A DNA stretch of 64,000 nt, from the NCBI GenBank assembly GCA_002346545.1, contig DEAA01000064.1, positions 1 to 64,000 of the forward strand. The letters run 5' to 3'. The position numbers were made by a program, and so were the translations under genes. The notes under the pieces were generated by a model. The model was not told where the DNA came from, made no database searches, and was given only the letters and a program-made list of their open reading frames with translations. The stretch is from Acidobacteria bacterium UBA2994. GTDB taxonomy: Bacteria; Acidobacteriota; Vicinamibacteria; Vicinamibacterales; UBA8438. Numbering within the stretch: position 1 is the first letter of the stretch; every line of letters begins with the position of its first letter. Shown here piece after piece: positions 12,639 through 53,844 of this stretch.

Positions 12639-14720
12639 GTGACTCGATTATCTCAGGCCCTCCTTGCCGTTGCGATGCTCGCCCTACCCGTTGTTGGCGG
12701 GTGGACGGTCGGGGCTGTGCCCCAACGCGCCAGCGACGAGCAGCTCCGGAACGCGGCTGATGACAACGCGAACTGGCTGATGTATGGGCGGACGTACGAC
12801 GAGCAACGGTTCAGCCCTCTCCAGCAGATTAACGAGGATACGGTCCGCCGACTTGGCCTGGTCTGGAGCCGTGAGCTGCCTACGACCCGAGGCGTCGAGG
12901 CCACACCAGTCGTCGTCGACGGTGTCATCTACACGACGGGGCCGTGGAGCATCGTCTACGCGTTCGACGCGAAGACGGGCGACCGCCTGTGGACTTATGA
13001 CCCCGACTCCGATCGCACCAGAGCCAGGCTCATCTGCTGCGACGTTGTGAACCGGGGCGTTGCTTTCTATGAGAACCGCGTCTATGTCGGGACCACCGAC
13101 GGTCGGCTGATCGCCGTTGACGCCGCCACCGGCGTCCAGGTGTGGGAAACGCTGACGATCGACTTGGACAAGCCGCTCGCCATTACCGGGGCCCCCAGAA
13201 TCGCCAACGGCTTGGTCGTCATTGGCAACGCGGGGGCCTAGTACGGCGTGCGTGGATATGTCTCTGCGTACGACGCAGAGACCGGCGGACTGGTGTGGCG
13301 AACGTACACCGTTCCTGGAAATCCGGCAGAAGGGTTCGAGAACGCGTCGATGCAGCGCGCCGCAGAAGCCTGGACCGGTGAATGGTGGCTGGCCGGTGGT
13401 GGGGGCACCGTGTGGGACGCGATCGTCTTCGACCCCGAGCTTGATCTCGTGTACGTAGGCACAGGAAATGCCGACCCCTGGTATCGCGATCTCCGCGGTC
13501 GAGGTGGCGACAACCTCTACGCCACCTCCATCCTCGCCCTGCACGCTGCTACCGGCGAATACGCGTGGCACTTCCAGCTAGTACCTGGCGACCACTGGGA
13601 CTACGATGCTACCCAGCCGCTGATGCTGGCAGATCTTGAGATCGACGGACGTCAGCGGCGTGTGATCATGCAAGCGTCGAAGAATGCCTTTTTCTACGTG
13701 CTGGATGCTGCCACCGGAGAATTTCTTTCCGGGACGCCGTATGCGCAGATGACCTGGGCGACCGGTATCGACTCTGAGACCGGTCGGCCGGTCGTAGCAA
13801 CAGCGGCGTACGATGGTATGGAACCGGTGATCGTGACCCCGGATCCTGGTGGGGCACACAACTGGTATCCGATGGCCTTTCATCCGACGACCGGGCTGGT
13901 CTATCTACCGGTGAAGGATGGCATGTTCTTCATCCATCCGCCCGACCCTGAATGGCAACCGGGCAAGAGAGCCTTTAATGCTGGGATCGAACCCGGCTAT
14001 GACGGTTCACTCCTGGAACAGCTATTGCTCAAGCCTCCCGCTCAAGGCAGGCTCGTGGCGTGGAACCCCGTGGCAGGGCGCGCAGACTGGACCGTTGATT
14101 TCCCGGTGGCCGAGAGTGGTGGCGTACTAGCCACGGCAGGCGGTCTCGTTTTCCAGGGACGTGCGGACGGGATCTTTGCGGCCTACCGCGCAACGGATGG
14201 CGACGTGTTGTGGGAGTTTGACGCGGGCACCGGGATCATGGCGCCTCCTGTTAGCTACCTCGTTGACGGCGTGCAACACATCACGCTTATGGTGGGATGG
14301 GGTGGAGCGCCCGGACTGATCAATCCGCCTGGAATGGGTCCCGTCAAGCCTGGTTATGGGCGCGTCTTAACCTTTGCGCTCGACGGCAACGCGTCGATGG
14401 AACCGAGGCCCTTTGGCCATACGGAGCCGCCTGTGCCGGCGCTCCCCGTAGAGGCATCCGCCGCGACCATTCGCGACGGACGAGAACTCTACGAGGGACT
14501 GTGTTTTGGGTGCCACGGTTTCGGTGCCATCGCCGGATCACTTCCAGATCTTCGATGCTCGTCTGCGAATGTGCATGCCCAGTTCGAGCAGATCGTCCTC
14601 GGCGGGCTGCGCGAGCAACGTGGGATGCCGAGATTCGACGACCTCATCGATGCCGAAGATGTCCGGGCGATCCAGCAATACATCCTGGAGAGATCCCACG
14701 CGAGCTCAGATGTCCCCTGA
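12639..14720 (+). pseudogene. Quinohaemoprotein alcohol dehydrogenase interrupted by one in-frame amber codon
   Basis: Two open stretches (12639-13241 and onward to 14720) are in one frame and together make a complete type II PQQ alcohol dehydrogenase of 693 codons. Features: signal peptide (ALLAVAMLALPVVGG), adjacent Cys 133-134 that form the family's vicinal disulfide (LICCDVVNRG), VGTGNADPWYRD with the metal-ligand Asn, GGDNLYATSILAL with the catalytic-site Asp, and a C-terminal cytochrome c domain with CFGCH (Cys 622, Cys 625, His 626). The TAG at 13239-13241 sits in GNAGA-stop-YGVRGYVSAYD, where relatives have Glu, the PQQ/Ca ligand. GAG to TAG would be a single change. It could be a true pseudogene, readthrough, or a sequencing error. 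It would oxidise alcohols in the periplasm and pass electrons to its haem. Confidence 0.85.
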
Positions 14721-14955: not shown

Positions 14956-16494
14956 ATGGTGAACGACACGAAGCGCGCCGGGTTTCTCGACCGGTTCCTG
15001 AACACGATCGAGGTGGTCGGCAATAGGCTACCTGACCCGGCCGTCTTGTTCTTGGTCCTGATGGCGTCTGTCTGGGTCCTGTCCTGGCCCCTCTCGAACG
15101 TCGATTTCGGGGCACAGCACCCGGCGACGGGCGAGGCGATCCACGTACTGAACCAGTTCAGTCTGCCCGGTCTGGCCAATCTGCTCTCTACGATGGTCAA
15201 CACGTTCGTGACCTTCCCTCCATTGGGGGTGGTTCTGGTAGCGCTCTTGGGCATCGGCGTGGCGGAGCACACTGGGTTCATCGGCGCCCTGATCAAGACC
15301 GTGCTGCGCTTCACCCCGCAGAGGTTCCTCACCCCGGTGCTGATCCTGGTTGGCGTCGCTAGCCACTACGCGGTCGACGCCGGTTATGTGCTAGTCATTC
15401 CACTGGGCGGCGTGATCTTCTACGCGGCGGGCAGGCACCCCTTGGCCGGGATCGCAGCCGCGTTTGCCGGCGTGTCAGGCGGCTTCTCGGCCAATTTTTT
15501 GATTCCCAGTGGGCTCGACCCTTTGCTACAAGGGTTCACCCTGTCGGCTGCCCAGTTGCTCGACCCGGAGGCACAGGTCAGCATCGTCAACAACAATGTC
15601 TTCACGGCGGCGTCGACCGTTCTGATTACCATCATCGGTTGGTTCATCACCGACAAGATCATCGAGCCGCGTGTGAGCGGTCACACCATCGACGGGGACC
15701 CCGAGCAGATGCCCAAGATGGAGGAGGTGACCGCCGCCGAGCAGCGGGGTATGGTCGCGGGCATCGTCACCGCGCTCTTTGGAGCAGTGGCCTTGATCTT
15801 GTGGGCGGTGCCGACGGACTCGGCGTTGCGTTTCGAAGAGCAGATCACTTCCTTCCAGGCGCCGCTGATGCAGTCGATCGTGCCGCTGATCTTCCTCTTC
15901 TTCCTGCTCCCTGGCGTCGTCCATGGGTACGTCTCGGGTTCGGTCACCTCGCATCGAGACATCGTCAAGGGTATGTCGAAGTCGATGGAGACCATGGGCT
16001 ACTACCTGGTCTTGGCCTTCTTCTGCTCGCTGTTCATCTGGATGTTCGGGCAGTCAAACATCGGCATCCTGCTGGCTGTCAAGGGCGCCGATGCACTTAG
16101 AGAGTTCGCCCTGCCCGGCCCAGTGACGATCGTCGGCATCGTTCTCTTGGTGGGCTTCGTGAACCTTCTGGTCGGCTCCGCGTCGGCCAAGTGGGGGCTG
16201 ATCGCGCCGGTGGTGGTGCCGATGTTGATGCAACTGGGCATTTCCCCGGACCTCACGCAGGCCGCCTACCGCGTCGGCGATTCGTCAACCAACATCATCA
16301 CGCCTCTCATGCCGTACTTCCCGCTGGTCGTGGTTTTCTGCCAGCGCTACGTGAAGAACACAGGTATTGGTACGCTGGTCTCGCTCATGCTGCCGTATAG
16401 CATCGCGTTGCTCCTGGTGTGGTCGGTGCTGCTGGTCGTGTTCTGGGTCAGCGGTATTCCCCTGGGTTCGCAGTCCAGCTACGTGTATCCGTAG
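14956..16494 (+). CDS. AbgT-family transporter
   Basis: A 512-residue membrane protein with about 12 hydrophobic segments. The start RFLNTIEVVGNRLPDPAVLF, then PPLGVVLVALLGIGVAEHTG, and the loop VGSASAKWGLIAPVVVPM followed by RVGDSSTNIITPLMPYF are typical of AbgT proteins, which import p-aminobenzoyl-glutamate or export antifolates; the ligand here is not known. A clear AAGGAGG lies at 14944-14950, 5 bases before the ATG. It stands alone. The 235-base gap before it (14721-14955) holds no supported gene. Confidence 0.9.
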   Translation: MVNDTKRAGFLDRFLNTIEVVGNRLPDPAVLFLVLMASVWVLSWPLSNVDFGAQHPATGEAIHVLNQFSLPGLANLLSTMVNTFVTFPPLGVVLVALLGIGVAEHTGFIGALIKTVLRFTPQRFLTPVLILVGVASHYAVDAGYVLVIPLGGVIFYAAGRHPLAGIAAAFAGVSGGFSANFLIPSGLDPLLQGFTLSAAQLLDPEAQVSIVNNNVFTAASTVLITIIGWFITDKIIEPRVSGHTIDGDPEQMPKMEEVTAAEQRGMVAGIVTALFGAVALILWAVPTDSALRFEEQITSFQAPLMQSIVPLIFLFFLLPGVVHGYVSGSVTSHRDIVKGMSKSMETMGYYLVLAFFCSLFIWMFGQSNIGILLAVKGADALREFALPGPVTIVGIVLLVGFVNLLVGSASAKWGLIAPVVVPMLMQLGISPDLTQAAYRVGDSSTNIITPLMPYFPLVVVFCQRYVKNTGIGTLVSLMLPYSIALLLVWSVLLVVFWVSGIPLGSQSSYVYP

Positions 16495-16583: not shown

Positions 16584-18407
16584 CTACGGGAGCGCGAATG
16601 TCAGGATCGAGCCGGTCGCAATCACCGTCACGTACTGGGTGCCGTTCACCTCGTAGGTCAAGGGGCTCGACTGGATGGTGCTCTCCGCCATGTAGTGGAA
16701 CAACTGTCCGCCCGTCTCGGCGTGGAACCCGTAGAGGCCCCCGTCCTCGGTACCTTGAAAGACGACATCGCCAGCCGTGACGACGCTTCCGCTAGAGGCG
16801 CCGAAGGTCACCGAGGGCAGGATCTGCTGCCACATCTCTTCGCCACTGGCCGGTTCGTAGGCCGTCAGGGTCGTCGTTCTCGGGAACTCGGGGACCCGGT
16901 TGAGCTCATCGATGTCGAAGCCCGGCACATGGCCGCCGCCCTGTCCGAACTCCAGGCCTTCGCCGACCGGCTTTACGAGGAGCGACACGCCGGCGTTCTT
17001 GCCGGTGACATAGAGCAGGCCGGTTCGCGGGCTAAAGGAGGGCGCGCCAAAGCTCGAACCGCCGTGCGCGACGAGAAAGTGCTCGTCAGTGGCATAGGGC
17101 CAGTACATCGGTCGGGCCTTAGCCCGAAGCTCGGGGTCGTCGAAGTGGAGATACGTCGCGCAGAACGGCGTCATCTGGACGCCACGGGCGTTGTAGGGAA
17201 TTGGCTGGGTCGGGTAGACCACCTCCCCCGGCACGTTCGATCGGATCTCCACCGGGGTTTCGACCATCGGGTTGATTGGCTCTCCGGTGTCGCGGTGCCA
17301 CATGTACAGGAGGCAGTTCTTGCCAGCCGCGGCAATTCCCTTGATCGTCTCGCCGTTGGCATCGGTCACGTCGAATAGGGTCGGGCCGGTGATGTTGTCC
17401 CAGTCCCACAGATCGTGGTGGATCGTCTGGTAATACCAGCGGAGCGCGCCCGTTTCGAGATCCAGCGCGATCGTCGAGTTGGTGAACAGGTTCTTCCCGG
17501 CTCGTGCCGAGCCGTCGTAGGGAGGCATCGGGTTCGCAGCGTTGACATACACCAGGCCAAGCTCGGCGTCGATGGCCGGCTGTGTCCAGATGCCGCCCCC
17601 GGCGCGTTTACCGTAGCCCCAGGTCGGGTCGGCAATCTCGAAGCCCTCATCCTGCGGCCGCTGCGGGACCGTGTTGAACACCCACTTGATCGCACCGGTG
17701 TCGGCGTCGGCTGCGACGACGAGGCCACCCGGGATGTTGCCCTCGGAGATCGCCGAGCCGACATAGAGCGTCCCGTCGTGGTACGCCGGTGAACTGTTGA
17801 TGCGGTAGCGCATCGATAAGGCATCGAATCCGGGAGGATAGGTGTCCGGATACTTGTGTTGGAGGGCCAAGCTCAGCACCGGCAGGATGCCGTCGTCGCC
17901 GAACTCTTCGACGAGCTCGCCGGTTTCGGTATCGGTCGCCACCAACTGATCGCCATGGTAGGAGTAGATGCGACCGTCGACGTGCAGCGGACCGCGCACG
18001 GTGCCGCCGGTCATCCCCTCGACCTCGGTGGTCCAGACCGACTCGCCCGTGACCGCGTTGAGCGCCAGCACGGAGTCCCGGCCGTGCAGATACATCACGC
18101 CATCGACGACCAGCGGCGTGACTTGTCTTACGTTGATGGTGCTCGGCACGTCGAACGTCCACAGACGCTCGAGCTGACCCACGTTCGTCGTGTCGATCTG
18201 GTCGAGCTCCGAGAACCGCTGGTTGTAGCGATCGAGGTTGTTGCTTTCCCAGTTGGTCTGGCTCTGGCCGGCGATGATCGAGGGCGGATTACCCCCGGTA
18301 GTGATGCGTGCCTGCGCGTCTGCCGTGGTCGGGTACAGCCCGACGATGGTCGTGAGGGCGAGCATTGCCAGCGCTCGATAAAGCGGCAAGTTCTTGGATG
18401 GTCGCAT
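16584..18407 (-). CDS. PQQ-dependent dehydrogenase-type propeller protein
   Basis: A 607-residue periplasmic protein, with a signal peptide ending TTADAQA. ATG at 18407 is chosen because AAGGA lies about 9 bases upstream. Tryptophan-docking propeller motifs recur (LNAVTGESVWTTEVEG, ADADTGAIKWVFNT, LDLETGALRWYYQ, and the end GSILTFALP). No cytochrome domain is present. At the position where PQQ dehydrogenases have GDN, this protein has AGKNLFTNSTIALD, so the usual catalytic Asp seems replaced by Lys; activity as a dehydrogenase is therefore uncertain. It is followed upstream (same strand, 49 bases) by a GVW-family gene, probably one operon. Confidence 0.82.
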   Translation of the reverse strand: MRPSKNLPLYRALAMLALTTIVGLYPTTADAQARITTGGNPPSIIAGQSQTNWESNNLDRYNQRFSELDQIDTTNVGQLERLWTFDVPSTINVRQVTPLVVDGVMYLHGRDSVLALNAVTGESVWTTEVEGMTGGTVRGPLHVDGRIYSYHGDQLVATDTETGELVEEFGDDGILPVLSLALQHKYPDTYPPGFDALSMRYRINSSPAYHDGTLYVGSAISEGNIPGGLVVAADADTGAIKWVFNTVPQRPQDEGFEIADPTWGYGKRAGGGIWTQPAIDAELGLVYVNAANPMPPYDGSARAGKNLFTNSTIALDLETGALRWYYQTIHHDLWDWDNITGPTLFDVTDANGETIKGIAAAGKNCLLYMWHRDTGEPINPMVETPVEIRSNVPGEVVYPTQPIPYNARGVQMTPFCATYLHFDDPELRAKARPMYWPYATDEHFLVAHGGSSFGAPSFSPRTGLLYVTGKNAGVSLLVKPVGEGLEFGQGGGHVPGFDIDELNRVPEFPRTTTLTAYEPASGEEMWQQILPSVTFGASSGSVVTAGDVVFQGTEDGGLYGFHAETGGQLFHYMAESTIQSSPLTYEVNGTQYVTVIATGSILTFALP

Positions 18408-18456
18408 GGTCTCTGTCCTTGGCGTTACGTCTGAAGACGTCGGTCGGATGATCATG

Positions 18457-19646: not shown

Positions 19647-21593
19647 TCAATTCGTCGGTAGGGCGAAGGCGATGATCTCGTCGTTGGTGACGTCTGACCC
19701 GGTCAGCCCTCCACCCGTGCTGATGATGGTCACGAACTGTCGGCCATCCTCACCGAGGTAGGTGATCGGCGTCGCCTGAATCGATGACGGGAGCCGGAGT
19801 TCCCAGAGCTGCTCGCCGGTCGCAGTGGCGAAGGCGCGGAAGCGGAAGTCGTCGGTTCCGCCCACGAAGGTGAGTCCGCTTGCGGTCAGGATGACGCCGC
19901 CGGTGCTGGGGCGGCCGGTGTCCCGCATCCCGGAGGGGAGCATGTCGGACACTCCCAGGGTCTTGCGGTAGGCGATATCGCCCGTGGACATGTCCACCGC
20001 GACCAGCTCGCCCCAGGGCGTCGGCCCGCATGGGAGCTTCCGGTCAGCGTCGCCGAAACGACGCAGTCCCGCCAACGAGCCGGAGTTGAACCAGGTGCCG
20101 TTGGGCCGCTGAACCAGTTGCATCGGCTGAAACAGATTCGTGACGTTGGAGATGAACAGTCCCAGGTCAGGGTCGTAGGCCGGGCCCCAGTAGTTGATGC
20201 CGCCGGCTGGCCCCGGAGGCGAGATGCTGTAGCGGTTGACGGCAATCGGCATGTAGGGGCCGCCCAGCTTCATGTCGTTGTCGTCGACCATCCGTTCACA
20301 GTAGGCCTGGTGTTCCGGCTCGCCCGTGTAAAGGTTGTCGCGGGAGATGGTCATCTGCGCCAGCGGTTCCGGTTTGACCGGGAACGGCTGGGTGGGTGAC
20401 GCGAGCTCGCCGGCGAGGTCGCTCGGCGGTACCGGGCGCTCCTCGATGGGGATGATCGGTTCCCCGGTGACGCGATTGAGTGTAAAGAGGAGTCCCGACT
20501 TGTTGACCGCGAGGAGGGCTGGGATGGTTTCCCCATTCCGTTCCAGGTCAACCACCAGCGGCGCCGACTGCGCGTCGTAGTCCCAGATGTCGTGGTGCAC
20601 GAACTGGAAATGCCAGAGGTACTCGCCGGTCTCGGCGTTGACGGCCACGATCGAGGAGGAGAATAGGTTGTCGCCGGGGCGATCGACACCGACCCGGTCG
20701 TCGTTCGGGGCGCCAATCGGCATGTAGAGGATGCCGCGCTCGGCGTCGAGCGACATGTAGCCCCAGACGTTGACGCCTGACCGGTCTCTCGCGCTGTCTC
20801 CGGCCCAGGAGTCGTAGCCGAACTCGTCTGGCCTCGGTACCGTGTGAAATGTCCAGACCAAATCGCCTGTCCGCGCATCCCAGGCGCGCGTGTCTCCGGC
20901 CGGTCCCGTGCCGTTCGGGAATCCGCGTCCCTCGCCGGTGCCGGCGCCAGTGATCACCAGGTTCTTGTAGACGGCTGGCGCCGAGAGCAGCGAGTAACTG
21001 GCGTCGGTGAACGATCGCATCACCTCCGAGGTCTTCAGGTCGACTATGCCGTTATCGCCGAAGCCTGCGTTTAGGGTACCGTCGGCGGCCGTGATCGAAT
21101 AGAGGGCGCCAGAGCTCGCCCCAAAGATGAGCGAGGGCGGGATGCTTCCGTCGCCCGGCCAGTAGGCGATACCGCGGCGTGATGGGAGCGCGCCGTCAGG
21201 CAGATCGAACCGCCAGTGTTCCTCGCCGGTGGTGGCATCTAGAGCGATGACGGAGCCGTAGGGCGAGCCCAGATACATCATGTCGCCGATGACCAGTGGA
21301 ATCGACTGGTCTTCCCGCAGTCGTCCCTCGAACCCCTCCGGCTTGAGGTTGATGCTCCAGACCCGTTCGAGTGAGGTGACGTTCTCGGCCGTGATCTGGG
21401 TGAGCGGGCTGTACCGGTTGGCGCTCTGTACGTAGTTGGTGCTGGGCCAATCGGTCGGTCCGGGTCCCACGGTCTGGGCGGTCGCGTTGATACCGCTGAT
21501 GACCATCGAGAACACGGTGGCGTGTGCGAGTGAGCGAAGGGCGCGATCGAGCAACAGAGTTCTCCTTGAGGACTTGGTGGAATACGGTCGCAT
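19647..21593 (-). CDS. PQQ-dependent dehydrogenase (glucose/alcohol type propeller)
   Basis: A 648-residue protein; ATG at 21593 gives MRPYSTKSSRRTLLLDRALR followed by a hydrophobic stretch and a cut near INATAQ. PQQ-propeller motifs are clear: LDATTGEEHWRFDLPDG, WDARTGDLVWTFHTVP, VNAETGEYLWHFQFVHHD, and ATATGEQLWELRLP. The GDNLFSSSIVAV segment keeps the catalytic-site Asp, and GAGTGEGRG offers a candidate metal-ligand Glu. There is no cytochrome domain, so electrons must pass to a separate acceptor. PQQ synthesis genes are not in this window. It is a separate unit from the gene pair at 16.6-19.5 kb, with 146 bases between. Confidence 0.88.
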   Translation of the reverse strand: MRPYSTKSSRRTLLLDRALRSLAHATVFSMVISGINATAQTVGPGPTDWPSTNYVQSANRYSPLTQITAENVTSLERVWSINLKPEGFEGRLREDQSIPLVIGDMMYLGSPYGSVIALDATTGEEHWRFDLPDGALPSRRGIAYWPGDGSIPPSLIFGASSGALYSITAADGTLNAGFGDNGIVDLKTSEVMRSFTDASYSLLSAPAVYKNLVITGAGTGEGRGFPNGTGPAGDTRAWDARTGDLVWTFHTVPRPDEFGYDSWAGDSARDRSGVNVWGYMSLDAERGILYMPIGAPNDDRVGVDRPGDNLFSSSIVAVNAETGEYLWHFQFVHHDIWDYDAQSAPLVVDLERNGETIPALLAVNKSGLLFTLNRVTGEPIIPIEERPVPPSDLAGELASPTQPFPVKPEPLAQMTISRDNLYTGEPEHQAYCERMVDDNDMKLGGPYMPIAVNRYSISPPGPAGGINYWGPAYDPDLGLFISNVTNLFQPMQLVQRPNGTWFNSGSLAGLRRFGDADRKLPCGPTPWGELVAVDMSTGDIAYRKTLGVSDMLPSGMRDTGRPSTGGVILTASGLTFVGGTDDFRFRAFATATGEQLWELRLPSSIQATPITYLGEDGRQFVTIISTGGGLTGSDVTNDEIIAFALPTN

Positions 21594-21664
21594 TGTATGT
21601 TGACCGGCGACGTCGACACCGGTCTGTCGGGAACGCGGCCCAGTCCGAGGGCGTCCTATCAACC

Positions 21665-46298: not shown

Positions 46299-48047
46299 TT
46301 ACCCCTCGGGCAGGGCAAAGATGAACAGGTTGTTGCCGATGCTTGGTCGGTGGTCAGGGTTCAGCCGGGCCAGTACACCGGTGTTTAGCGAGCGGCCGGT
46401 GCTGACCGCCACATACTGCTGGCCCTCGATGGCGTAGGTCACCGGAAACCCGGTCACTGGCGATCCGATGTTGATCTCCCAGAGCAGTTCTCCGGTGTCC
46501 TGGTCGATAGCCTTGAAGCGGCCATTCGAGTCGCCGAAGAACAGCAGGTGCCCGCCGGTGGCGACCACCGACATCGTGAAGGCCTCCTGATCGTGGCTCC
46601 AGGTGACCTCGCCGGTCTCCACCGAGATCGCCTCAATGGTGCCGAGTTGCTGTTCGCCAGGCGTGATCTGCGCCCGGACGTTTAGTGAGTACCAGCCGTT
46701 TCCGGAGTCGACCATGACCCGGCCACAGGTATGGCGGAGCGGCATGTACATGTGGTTCGTGAGGGGGCTATAGGCGCCTGCCTCCCAGTCCTTGCCGCCT
46801 TGCCAGATGGGGCACGCCATGACCTCTTGGCCGTTTCCCGTGAAGACCACCTCGGAGTTTTCGGTCACCGCACCGGTCGCTCCGTCGATATGACTTACCA
46901 CGTTCTGGCTGACCGACGGGGTTGCCCAGAGAAACTCGCCTGTCTCGCGATCGAGCGTGTAGATGATCCCGGTCTTGCCCGGGATGCCGGTGACCACCCG
47001 CCGGCGCTCCCCTGACTCCAGTCGCGGGTTGATCCAGGCGACTGCCTCCGGGTTCGGCGCCACCGCGGTGTCGACCAGGATCCGTTCGAACGGGTGATCC
47101 AGATCCCAGTGGTCGTTTAAGTGTTGGTAGTACCAGCGGATCTCGCCGGTGGTCCCGTCGAGCGCGAGTGTGGAGTTGTGGTACAGGTGCGTGTTAGTGA
47201 CGCCGCCCACCAGGAACTTTGGCGCGGGCGAGGTTACTGACGTGCCGATGTAGACGAGGTCCAGTTCGGGGTCGTAGCTCGGCACCATCCAGGCGCCCAC
47301 GTGCTTGCGCTCCTCGTAGGGCAGCCCTCCCCAGGTCTCGTCGCCAGGTTCCCCTGGGCGGGGGATGGTCCGGCGGCGCCACAGCTCCTCTCCAGTGCGC
47401 GCGTTGTGGGCGGTAATGACGCAGGCGTCTGGGCCAGAGTCCGGCATACAGCCCCGGCCAGAGTAGATCCTGCCATTGCCGATGATCGGACCGGATGACT
47501 GGTGGGCCGGTAGTTCCCGATAGTCGAGGATCTGAGTCTCCCACACTAGTTCCCCGGACGAGGCGTCGAGCGCGAACACGTAGTCGTCGGCGCTGGTGTC
47601 GATGATGAGGCCTTCGTAGATTGCCAGGTTGCGGTTGATCCTGGAGAGCATGGGGATGATGTAGTCGTCCAGATCGTCCGGCAGGTTCCGACGATACTCC
47701 CAGACGAGGTCGCCGGTGGCGGCGTCCAGTGCCTGGATGACGTCGCCCGGATTCGGCATGTACATCATGCCGTCGTAGACCAGCGGAGTGCCCTGGTTGC
47801 TGCCGTCGTTTAGCGCCCGGGTCCACACCATGCGCAGTTGGTCGACATTGCTCCGGTCGATCGTGTCGAGCGGGCTGTAGCCCCAGCCATTCAGGGTGCG
47901 CCGCCACATCGGCCAGTCTTCGGGCGCCGGGTTTTGCAGCATGGCGTCGGTCACCGGGACGAAGTCGGCCGGCTGGGCTGCGGCTGGGCCGGCCAGGACG
48001 GTCGTCACCAACAGGAGTGCGGCGGTCGCGCTACGGGTATGGGGCAT
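46299..48047 (-). CDS. PQQ-dependent dehydrogenase-type protein, HNST subgroup
   Basis: A 582-residue protein starting at ATG 48047 with a signal peptide (TAALLLVTTVLAGPAAA). Propeller motifs: LDAATGDLVWEYRRNLPD, LDASSGELVWETQILDY, NARTGEELWRRRTIP, LDGTTGEIRWYYQHLND and LDRETGEFLWATP. In place of the catalytic GDN segment it has TNTHLYHNSTLALD, so the usual Asp is missing; this subgroup may use another residue or bind PQQ without classic alcohol oxidation. Its Cys pair GRGCMPDSGPDACVIT is distinct. The upstream esterase is 20 bases away, so the two form an operon. Confidence 0.8.
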   Translation of the reverse strand: MPHTRSATAALLLVTTVLAGPAAAQPADFVPVTDAMLQNPAPEDWPMWRRTLNGWGYSPLDTIDRSNVDQLRMVWTRALNDGSNQGTPLVYDGMMYMPNPGDVIQALDAATGDLVWEYRRNLPDDLDDYIIPMLSRINRNLAIYEGLIIDTSADDYVFALDASSGELVWETQILDYRELPAHQSSGPIIGNGRIYSGRGCMPDSGPDACVITAHNARTGEELWRRRTIPRPGEPGDETWGGLPYEERKHVGAWMVPSYDPELDLVYIGTSVTSPAPKFLVGGVTNTHLYHNSTLALDGTTGEIRWYYQHLNDHWDLDHPFERILVDTAVAPNPEAVAWINPRLESGERRRVVTGIPGKTGIIYTLDRETGEFLWATPSVSQNVVSHIDGATGAVTENSEVVFTGNGQEVMACPIWQGGKDWEAGAYSPLTNHMYMPLRHTCGRVMVDSGNGWYSLNVRAQITPGEQQLGTIEAISVETGEVTWSHDQEAFTMSVVATGGHLLFFGDSNGRFKAIDQDTGELLWEINIGSPVTGFPVTYAIEGQQYVAVSTGRSLNTGVLARLNPDHRPSIGNNLFIFALPEG

Positions 48048-48067
48048 TTCGACTCTGCCAGGTTGGG

Positions 48068-49078
48068 TTAGTTCGAAGCGCGACGACGCCCAGACGGACG
48101 CTGTCCAAGTGCCCGTTGCATCACTTCGTACTGCACTCCGATGATTCGGCCGATCGACTGGATCCAGTAGTCGGCGTCGTGACGGCCAGCCATCTGCATA
48201 TAGTCGAACGGGATGTCGCGTTCCATCAAGATGCCGGCTAGCTCTCGCGCGCCGCTGATGAGGCGGTCTTCGGTGCCACAATCTAGGTAGATGTGAGGCA
48301 GTGCCTCCTGCGGCACCTGATCGATCAGGGTGAACGGGTCGTAGGCGTCGGCGTCCTCGGCGGTCACGAACTCGGTTCCCTCCGGGGTCCGTTCCACCTG
48401 GCTACTGAAGCCGTCGATGCCGATGAGCGGGTTCGGTTGTTGCCGCCGCCGTTCGCGTTCGGCCCGCTGTGCTTCGGTTAACTGCCGTCTCGGCTGGCGG
48501 GGTGGCTCCTCTCCACGCATCCGTCTTGAAACCTGCCGCGCATGCTCCAGCGCGCCGCTGGTGCTCCCGATGGAGATGAAGAGCTCAGGGTTGCGCAGAC
48601 CCAAGCTTATCGAGCCGTAGCCGCCCATGGAGAGTCCTGCGATCGCCCGACCCTCTCGTCTGGCGATCGTCCGGAAGTTCCAGTCCACGTGGCTCACCAC
48701 ATCCACCACGATGTGGTCTTCCCAGTTGTTGGTCTGGCCACCGGTGCTTTCGGCCCAGTTGGCGTACCACGAGTTCCCGCCGTCGGGCATCACCACGATG
48801 AGGTCGTCGTAGAGGCTGGCGTAGAACGGCGTGCCGTTGGCGAGTCCCCAGGCGGTGTAGTTCTGGGTCAGCCCGTGCAGGAGATACAGCACCGGATACC
48901 GTTCGGTCGACGCCGCATAGTCGCTGGGTAGCAGGATGTTGTATTTCATGTCGCGGTCGACGGCCGGGCTGTAGAACTCGACCGTCAGTAACTCCGGTGT
49001 CTGGGCCGTGGCTGGCTGACCCAGCCCCACCAGGACAACCGCCGTCACCGTTGTTACGAGCGCTCTCTTCAGAGTCAT
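48068..49078 (-). CDS. Secreted esterase-D-like serine hydrolase
   Basis: A 336-residue alpha/beta hydrolase of the Esterase D/tributyrin-esterase family with a signal peptide (VTAVVLVGLGQPATAQ). It has the oxyanion segment YPVLYLLHGLTQNYTAWG, the nucleophile elbow AGLSMGGYGS, the acid YLDCGTEDRLI and the catalytic His in GRHDADYW. An AGGAG Shine-Dalgarno lies before the ATG. A Pro/Arg-rich insertion (RMRGEEPPRQPRRQLTEAQ) sits between the nucleophile and acid. Such enzymes hydrolyse short acyl esters, for example acetylated or feruloylated sugars. It is the first gene of an operon with the HNST-type PQQ protein. Confidence 0.88.
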   Translation of the reverse strand: MTLKRALVTTVTAVVLVGLGQPATAQTPELLTVEFYSPAVDRDMKYNILLPSDYAASTERYPVLYLLHGLTQNYTAWGLANGTPFYASLYDDLIVVMPDGGNSWYANWAESTGGQTNNWEDHIVVDVVSHVDWNFRTIARREGRAIAGLSMGGYGSISLGLRNPELFISIGSTSGALEHARQVSRRMRGEEPPRQPRRQLTEAQRAERERRRQQPNPLIGIDGFSSQVERTPEGTEFVTAEDADAYDPFTLIDQVPQEALPHIYLDCGTEDRLISGARELAGILMERDIPFDYMQMAGRHDADYWIQSIGRIIGVQYEVMQRALGQRPSGRRRASN

Positions 49079-50458: not shown

Positions 50459-51871
50459 TCAGAAGATGAAGTAGATGAACGGGTTGAATGTCTGGCTAGC
50501 CATCAGGCTCACTGAGATGCCGAGCAGCACTAGGCACCACGCGGCCCTGAGGGGGGTCAGGGTGCGGGTGAAGTTCCAGGTCTGCGGCGCTGTCCACACC
50601 ACCAGCGCGGCGACGACCAGGGTCAGCGCGTAGTAGGGCTGATACAGAAGTCCGCCTACCAGCGCCGACTCGGGTGGGGTCGGGGCCAAGCCGACGAGCG
50701 CGGCCAGGTAGCCAAGCGCCACAGCGAGCGTCGGCGCACGGAAGAACACCCACGCCAGACAGACGATGGCGAACGTGACCGCCGTGGCGGCGGTGGCCGG
50801 CAGACGGCGATACAGGCTGGTCTTGCCGCGGCTCCGCTCGAACGCCAGCATGGCGCCGTGGATGCCGCCCCAGATGATGAAGTTCCAGGAGGCGCCATGC
50901 CAGAGACCGCCCAGCAGCATCACGGTCATGAGGTTCACGTAGGTGCGGAGCCGGCCCTTGCGGTTTCCGCCGAGCGGCAGATAGAGGTAGTCCCGCAGGA
51001 AGAACGAGAGTGACAGGTGCCAGCGCTGCCAGAACTCGGTGATCGACCGGGCCCGATACGGAGAGTCGAAGTTCTTCGGAAACACGAAGCCCAGCATCAG
51101 ACCGAGCCCGACCGCCATGTCGCTGTAGCCGCTGAAATCGAAGTAGATCTGGAACGCATACGCCACCAAGCCGTACCAGGCGTCGATGACATGCAGTGCG
51201 CCCGCTTCGAAGCAGGTGTCGGCGATCTTGCCAGCCGGGTTCGCCAGCATGACCTTCTTCGCCATGCCGCAGGCAACGAACGACACGCCACGCGCGAACT
51301 TGGCTACGGTGTGTTCCCGGCTGCGAAGCTGGTCGGACACCTCGCGGAACCTGACAATCGGACCGGCGACCAGCTGTGGGAACAGCGCCACGTAACAGGC
51401 GAAATCGATGATGTTCGAGAGCGGGCGCGCCTGACCGCGGTAGATGTCGATGGTGTAGCTCATCGACTGGAAGGTGTAGAAGCTGATGCCGAGCGGCAGC
51501 GTGACGCGAAAGAAGGTCTCCCACTGCAGGTGGTCGGCGCCCAACGCGCTCACCAGCACGTTGTAGTTCTCCAGTCCGAAGTTGAAGTACTTGAAGAATC
51601 CGAGCAGACCCAGGTTCGTGACGATGGAGACGGTCAGGGCGGCGCGGTGTCGTCGGGTGCGCGGCCCTGGTTCGCCCACCACTAGTCCGCAACCGTAGTC
51701 GACGAGCGTGCTGAAGAGCATGAGCAGCACGAACGCCGGGTTCCACCAGCCGTAGAAGACGTAGCTGAGCGACGCGAGCAGTAGGTGGCGTAGCCGCTGT
51801 GGCGCGAGGTAGTAGGCAGCCAGCGTGAGCGGCAGGAAGACGAAAACGAAGATGTATGAGGAGAAGACCAC
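50459..51871 (-). CDS. MBOAT-family O-acyltransferase, AlgI-like
   Basis: A 470-residue membrane protein starting at GTG 51871, with about 11 spans. The catalytic MBOAT block is MLLGGLWHGASWNFIIWGG, where the His in LWHGASW is the conserved active-site residue; other marks are LGLLGFFKYFNFGLENY and LPLGISFYTFQSMSYTIDIY. It moves acetyl groups across the inner membrane for the AlgJ-like partner. The two genes are 2 bases apart and form one operon. Confidence 0.93.
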   Translation of the reverse strand: MVFSSYIFVFVFLPLTLAAYYLAPQRLRHLLLASLSYVFYGWWNPAFVLLMLFSTLVDYGCGLVVGEPGPRTRRHRAALTVSIVTNLGLLGFFKYFNFGLENYNVLVSALGADHLQWETFFRVTLPLGISFYTFQSMSYTIDIYRGQARPLSNIIDFACYVALFPQLVAGPIVRFREVSDQLRSREHTVAKFARGVSFVACGMAKKVMLANPAGKIADTCFEAGALHVIDAWYGLVAYAFQIYFDFSGYSDMAVGLGLMLGFVFPKNFDSPYRARSITEFWQRWHLSLSFFLRDYLYLPLGGNRKGRLRTYVNLMTVMLLGGLWHGASWNFIIWGGIHGAMLAFERSRGKTSLYRRLPATAATAVTFAIVCLAWVFFRAPTLAVALGYLAALVGLAPTPPESALVGGLLYQPYYALTLVVAALVVWTAPQTWNFTRTLTPLRAAWCLVLLGISVSLMASQTFNPFIYFIF

Positions 51872-51930
51872 CGCGGTTGCCGGGGGACCAGCCCATCATA
51901 GCGCGGAAGCCGGTGCGCACCGTCACGCCA

Positions 51931-51936
51931 TATAAT
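51931..51936 (+). promoter_or_regulatory. TATAAT -10 box of the lipoprotein PQQ gene
   Basis: A perfect TATAAT lies 36 bases before GTG 51973. No convincing -35 is seen at 16-18 bases upstream. It lies in the divergent gap with the AlgI-like gene. Confidence 0.5.
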
Positions 51937-51972
51937 GCGGGCCTCGACGCGATATCTGACGGGAGGTTCTCC

Positions 51973-53844
51973 GTGACACGTGCGCACACCAATCCTGGCG
52001 GCCTGTTCATCGCCGTATTGTCGTGGCTCTGGCTCGCTGGGTGTGGCTCGCCAGGCCCTGGCGATACGGTCGGGGACGACGCGGCTCCTCCAACGGCTGC
52101 CGTCAGCGGCGACTGGCCCATGTATCGCTACGATCTCGCGGCGACCGGGTATTCGCCGCTTGGCGAGATCACCGTAGCGAACGTGTCCACGCTGACCGAG
52201 GCCTGGACCCATTCGCTGACGCCCGTTGATCCGGAGGCACGCGGACCGAACTCGCAGATGACGCCGATCGTGGTCGACGGGGTCCTCTATGGGACCGCGG
52301 CCGACCGGGTGGTGGCGCTTGATCCCGCCACGGGCGCCGAGTTGTGGAGACACGCGGTGGACGGGGCTCGTCCCTCGCGTCGCGGGGTTTCGTACTGGCC
52401 AGGTGGTGCCGGCCTCAAGCCTCGCATCATCTTTACCACGGGGCTCCATCTACGCGCCGTCGATGCCGCCACGGGCACTCCCGTCGAGGCGTTCGGCGCC
52501 GCCGGGCTGGTCGAGCTTGGCGTGCCCTACAACTCGGTGCCGATGGTGGCGGGCAACGTCGTCGTGGTTGGAGCCAACACCCCACCAGGGAGCATTGGTG
52601 GCATCGGGAATGCCCGGGCCTACGACGCTCGAACCGGGGAGAGGTTGTGGGAGTTCTCTTCGGTCGCACAGCCAGGCGAGCCTGGTCACGATACGTGGGA
52701 GGGAGATAGCTGGCAGGACCGGTTGGGCGCGAACGCCTGGCCGTTCTACTTTTCGATGGACGAGGAGCGGGGGCTGGTCTATCTCCCGCTGGCATCGCCG
52801 ATTCCTGGTGACTATGGCGGCGACCGGTCCGGCGACAATCTCTACGGCAACTCGGTGGTGGCAGTCGACGCCGAGACCGGCGCGTATCGTTGGCACTTCC
52901 AGACCATCAGACACGATCTTTGGGACGCCGACCCGCCGGCGCCGCCCGCGCTGTTCGACATCGGTGAGGTCCCAGCTCTAGGCGTGACCACCAAGTCGGG
53001 CTACCTGTACATCCTCAACCGGGAAACTGGCGAACCGATCTACGGGGTCGAGGACATCGACGTGGCCCCGAGTGATGTTCCAGGCGAGGAGACCGCGGAC
53101 ACCCAGCCGGTGCCGCTGCGGCCCACCGGCCTGTCGCGATTGACCTACGACTCGGCGGACCTCGTCACCGCGGAGATGACATCGGCCGAGCACGCGGCGG
53201 CCTGTGGGGAACTGGTGGGTTCGCTTGGTGAGATCTTCAACGCCGGACCGTTCACGCCCTGGGTCTATCGGGCCCCGGGTTCGCCGCTTCGCACGACGCT
53301 GTCGTTCCCGGGGCAGGTAGGCGGCGCTAACTGGGGCGGTGTGACCGTGGACCGCGAGACCGGCTATCTCCTCGTGACGACCCAGGACATGGGCGCGCTC
53401 GGCTTCGTCGAGGACGCGCCAGACGATCACCCGTTGGCCTATCGTCGCGGAACGATGCGACCCGGGAGCTTCACCGTTCGACTCGATGACACCACGCTGC
53501 CGTGCCAGGCGCCACCCTGGGGACGATTGACCGCGGTGGACGCGGCGACCGGCGACATCGCCTGGCAGGAGACGCTGGGGGTGACCGACTCGTTGCCGGA
53601 CGGGAAGCAGGCGACAGGGCGGCTGATACGCGCCGGGGCCATCACGACCGCCGGCGGACTCGCGTTCGTGGCCGGTACCGACGACAACCGGCTGCGCGCC
53701 TTCGAGACCGCGACCGGGCGTGAGGTGTGGACCGAGCGGTTGTCCGGGTTCGGCAACGCCAATCCGATGACGTATGCCGTCGACGGGAAGCAGTACGTGG
53801 CGGTGGCGGCGAACGATACACTCGTTGCCTACGCGCTGCCCTGA
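51973..53844 (+). CDS. Lipoprotein PQQ-dependent dehydrogenase
   Basis: A 623-residue protein. GTG 51973 is chosen because GGGAGG lies 6 bases upstream and gives a lipoprotein signal ([13 protein letters not shown], lipidated Cys24). Propeller motifs: [54 protein letters not shown] and [15 protein letters not shown]. The catalytic-site Asp is kept in [13 protein letters not shown]. No cytochrome domain. Being membrane-anchored, it may pass electrons directly to a membrane partner. It ends in convergent overlap (16 bases) with the CoA-transferase. Confidence 0.88.

Follow-up and report, generated by a model that had tools for sequence, protein, structure and literature searches.

The closest described relatives of the reading frame reported here are the type II quinohaemoprotein alcohol dehydrogenases 1kv9, 1yiq and 1kb0. 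These give long alignments (676, 651 and 617.5 bits, respectively) and share with the frame a PQQ propeller, a vicinal Cys pair, a WD motif and a C-terminal cytochrome c domain. However, the frame differs from all three in displaying a stop codon at the metal-ligand Glu position, and a complete product is not expected. A second comparison is with bacterial nonsense pseudogenes and internal stops; in two reports (PMC7918605, PMC11017572) these likewise consist of a single internal stop in a gene that is otherwise constrained, and the former describes internal stops in constrained bacterial genes as widespread and in many cases short-lived. Here the stop falls on a metal ligand, and it was not found in any second genome. 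The account given in either report could cover the present case. Pyrrolysine recoding also places an amber codon inside a frame, but in this genome no synthetase scored over its cut-off, no CTA tRNA was seen and the relatives carry Glu or Asp. Literature searches on PQQ-dependent dehydrogenases in Vicinamibacterales, and on nonsense mutations in PQQ alcohol dehydrogenases of acetic acid bacteria, returned no reports.

The interrupted frame is situated on the forward (+) strand at positions 12639–14720 of the window (the whole stretch of 64,000 nt that was analyzed, which contains no ambiguous bases) and consists of 693 codons plus a terminal TGA. The sole stop ahead of the TGA is an in-frame TAG at codon 201 (13239–13241, +). 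The N-terminal 200 codons (12639–13238, +) carry a start that resembles a signal peptide by eye, the first part of the propeller and the vicinal Cys pair, C133-C134. A downstream open frame of 490 aa, with a GTG at 13248 (13248–14720, +), contains the remainder of the propeller, with the motif WDYD at residues 320–323 (W320-D321), and the cytochrome c domain with the haem-binding motif CFGCH at codons 622–626 (14502–14516, +); this downstream frame shows no signal peptide-like start. With X substituted for the stop, Pfam models PF01011, PF13360 and PF13442 all score above cut-off, with 265 bits for the PQQ propeller PF01011 and 38.3 bits for the cytochrome c domain PF13442, and the alignment with 1kv9 spans residues 37–687. 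Taken alone, the piece 5′ of the stop gives 96 bits for the propeller, and the piece 3′ of the stop gives 164.3 bits for the propeller and 38.9 bits for PF13442. Propeller and C-terminal cytochrome c domain thus form one chain only if the stop is replaced by X. The preliminary description had the frame complete but for one TAG, and the Cys pair, the cytochrome c domain, the haem motif and the absence of further stops agree with this. On the basis of domains, motifs and alignments the frame is a predicted type II quinohaemoprotein alcohol dehydrogenase. An AbgT-family transporter (14956–16494, +; 617.5 bits with Pfam) is found directly 3′ of it.

Codon 201 aligns with the Glu of the sequence GNGGAEYGVRG or GNGGAEFGVRG in 1kv9, 1yiq and 1kb0, as had been proposed from the window. 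In an alignment of 262 proteins, 246 of the 261 sequences other than the query cover this codon, and Glu is present in 243 and Asp in three. A wider contig search, from which 80 loci were kept, shows Glu in 73 and Asp in seven, and all 29 loci from relatives have Glu. A stop at codon 201 was found in none of the 246 aligned proteins and none of the 109 aligned loci. Within the same genome, five of six nearer relatives carry Glu (37–49% identity) and one carries Asp (37%), with no internal stops in the matched stretches of the six. Thirty distant paralogues in the genome display mixed residues (11 Asp, six Lys, one Glu and others), the alignments being unreliable at 23–32% identity. The acidic metal-ligand residue of the GAE-x-GVRG site is therefore absent here, with TAG in its place. 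Codon 201 is presumed to be equivalent to Glu177 of MxaF, as had also been suggested, by virtue of the GAE-x-GVRG motif shared with MxaF. Glu177 of MxaF is a first-shell Ca ligand according to PMC8028316.

Orthologues were sought in 40 genomes, and 37 gave some match. A full copy with 92% identity, Glu at codon 201 and no stop is found in G008, a genome of the same family but another genus (contig JAPYUM010000209.1, a 100% match to locus L110). A third genus, represented by G003, has a copy with 91% identity over residues 1–226, where a contig end cuts it, also with Glu and without a stop. Relative to these uninterrupted orthologues, the window copy as assembled carries a disabling lesion. A close copy was not found in the same-genus genome G001 (77% complete). 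Among 28 genomes of the family, a search at E ≤ 1e-180 showed copies in the window genome (G000) and G008, plus a copy of 54% identity in G010; a search with protein P0122, described below, adds G003, giving a close copy in 3 of the 28. The gene is accessory and patchy in the family. The presence of 91–92% identical copies (L014, L043) across three genera suggests either that the gene has recently been transferred horizontally or that there is a fault in the binning. When the short G008 and G003 contigs are compared with the window, and the gene with up to 45 bases beside it is set aside, two weaker blastn matches are left, one of 247 bases (67% identity) and one of 105 bases (73%).

The explanation favored here, at a probability of about two in three, is an ordinary and very recent nonsense lesion in an accessory type II dehydrogenase gene. 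The nonsense change would have arisen very recently in this lineage, whose genome contains PQQ-propeller genes in great number. Release factor 1 would end translation at the TAG, leaving a 200-residue product from which the haem domain, most of the propeller and part of the PQQ pocket are missing; this product would probably be inactive and degraded. The base is taken to be real, with little full-length protein made, and the loss would be tolerated because related enzymes are present. The preliminary description had offered a fresh lesion, a sequence error and readthrough side by side; the first two fit with the uninterrupted orthologues and the lack of a second stop, while readthrough by a dedicated tRNA found no support in a tRNA set that is incomplete.

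Two proteins point to a possible break in a relative near the same place. P0122, from a search with the N-terminal part, is 76% identical, but the likeness stops two residues past codon 201 and is followed by an unrelated eight-residue tail. P0242, from a search with the C-terminal part, is 456 aa long, 78% identical and begins near residue 238. The two may be halves of a relative's gene broken near codon 203, their origin in one species being a guess. P0122 was considered as evidence of a stop shared at codon 201 and was rejected, since it has Glu there. A search for the DNA of both proteins in 162 genomes of the order, at strict thresholds, gave just the G000 and G008 copies, plus G003 for P0122.

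The main rival to a recent lesion is an error of assembly or consensus, or a minority strain variant picked by the assembler, with the resident gene intact; it would look the same and is considered unlikely, although it is the most serious of the alternatives. The assembled genome comprises 82 contigs, sequence constraint is as strong 3′ of the stop as 5′ of it, and many putative bacterial pseudogenes are attributed to assembly errors in PMC11017572. Several observations argue against it, among them the lack of ambiguous bases noted above. The genome encodes a great many PQQ-propeller proteins, with 100 PF01011 and 179 PF13360 stretches in 4.1 Mb (one gene can yield several such stretches); four further PQQ-propeller genes are in the window itself, at 16584–18455, 19647–21662, 46299–48281 and 51856–53844. 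In a partial census (88 of 224 candidates scored), only one of the 100 matched PF01011 stretches contains a stop, namely the TAG of codon 201, so such errors do not appear common across the family. No paralogue found in the genome is nearer than 51% identity, which makes cross-assembly of paralogues unlikely. In addition, codon 201 differs from both orthologues at two positions, and a true difference would thus be needed besides the error. Two further stop-bearing stretches among the PF13360 matches listed were rejected, as they overrun true gene ends (ORF 51856–53844 and a gene on contig C53). A PQQ gene with pieces in different frames was also set aside: runs of N, either gaps in the assembly or withheld sequence, interrupt it, and it gives no evidence of decay. 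A second region with pieces in different frames is L206 (from the ORF list and tblastn).

Selection was assessed in comparison with the orthologues. Between the window copy and the G008 copy, dN/dS is 0.095 overall, 0.152 before the stop and 0.078 after it, and dS is 0.31 before and 0.47 after, the values being pairwise and covering both lineages. With a ratio as low as 0.078 after it, the stop must be either very recent, an error or tolerated. Over the 226 codons common to the three copies, synonymous and amino-acid changes number 25 and 14 for the G000 branch, 11 and 2 for G008, and 17 and 3 for G003. The G000 branch, which includes the stem here and in the private-residue count, thus has 14 amino-acid changes of 39, against 5 of 33 for the other two (Fisher two-sided p = 0.062, one-sided p = 0.041). 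Private residues number 37 in G000 (stem included), 11 in G008 and 11 in P0002. There are 23 listed differences at positions of at least 80% family conservation, and 17 are private to G000; at these 17 conserved columns G000 departs from the family residue at seven and matches it at seven, and at three neither side matches. These sequence comparisons give no clear sign of decay and do not prove relaxed selection after the lesion. Third-position GC in the window copy is 0.795 before the stop and drops to 0.673 beyond it (p = 0.001), whereas the fall in G008, from 0.825 to 0.787, is not significant (p = 0.30). Amino-acid constraint is no weaker 3′ of the stop. Together with the rise in dS across the stop, the GC drop in the window copy possibly reflects a mosaic history.

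The same constraint bears on a leaky stop, in which near-cognate tRNAs would read through at a low level and supply enough enzyme for the downstream half to be kept by selection. It is argued in PMC7918605 that internal stops occur widely in bacterial genes under purifying selection, and the dN/dS after the stop is low, but a very recent stop yields the same ratio. Across the stop, a stretch of 100 bases has a somewhat better fold than its shuffled versions (z = −2.40, with 5 of 200 shuffles as good), yet 3′ of the stop nothing about the folding stands out (z = −1.53, against −1.19 in the orthologue). The T that follows the TAG makes for a strong termination context, which counts against leakiness. 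Enzyme function would probably suffer from a non-acidic residue at the metal site, and the stop is shared by none of the aligned proteins and loci, although a gene of this kind would appear in pieces in a protein database. Readthrough of this kind is accordingly regarded as improbable, well below an assembly error.

Another explanation would be decoding of the TAG by a dedicated tRNA, either a suppressor or one for pyrrolysine. A search for a suppressor tRNA with a CTA anticodon, which the preliminary description had proposed, found none among 31 tRNA matches, a set that is incomplete, since none was named for Tyr, Trp, Asp or Ile, so that the assembly might lack a CTA tRNA as well. ARAGORN names 29 of the 31; the remaining two are cut by N, and their anticodon loops read as Arg and Pro in the covariance alignment. 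Release factor 1 is present (523.3 bits, cut-off 423.25), and the PylS model TIGR02367 gives two matches, of 29.5 and 25.8 bits, both far below the cut-off of 178.15. TAG is an ordinary terminator in this genome, ending 8 of 24 chosen open reading frames in the window as well as one relative on contig C53. With folding, tRNAs and PylS giving nothing convincing, no other internal stop in the partial PF01011 census, and Glu or in some cases Asp in the relatives, recoding by a dedicated tRNA is very hard to credit. It is just as far-fetched that the amber is decoded by a tRNA encoded in the unassembled remainder of the genome, with the inserted residue at the metal position and activity dependent on suppression. 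If the amber were decoded, it would to our knowledge be the first example in which a PQQ metal site is recoded, but the analysis yielded no support for decoding.

There remains the location of the stop, which had been put forward as special because it coincides exactly with a metal ligand. In this frame 155 codons are one base from any stop, 98 of them one base from TAG. About eight of the 155 are presumed to be PQQ-pocket residues (E87, C133, C134, codon 201, W259, K348, W409 and W554), so that a random nonsense change would strike the pocket about once in 20 times and codon 201 about once in 155, a position singled out after the fact. Because codon 201 is one of 155 single-step nonsense targets, and the stop recurs in no aligned protein or locus, the coincidence carries little weight. 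Thus some caution is in order: a stop at a catalytic residue draws attention, yet random nonsense change sometimes yields one. The lesion as such is of little consequence, with perhaps one accessory dehydrogenase, out of very many, turned off in this lineage.
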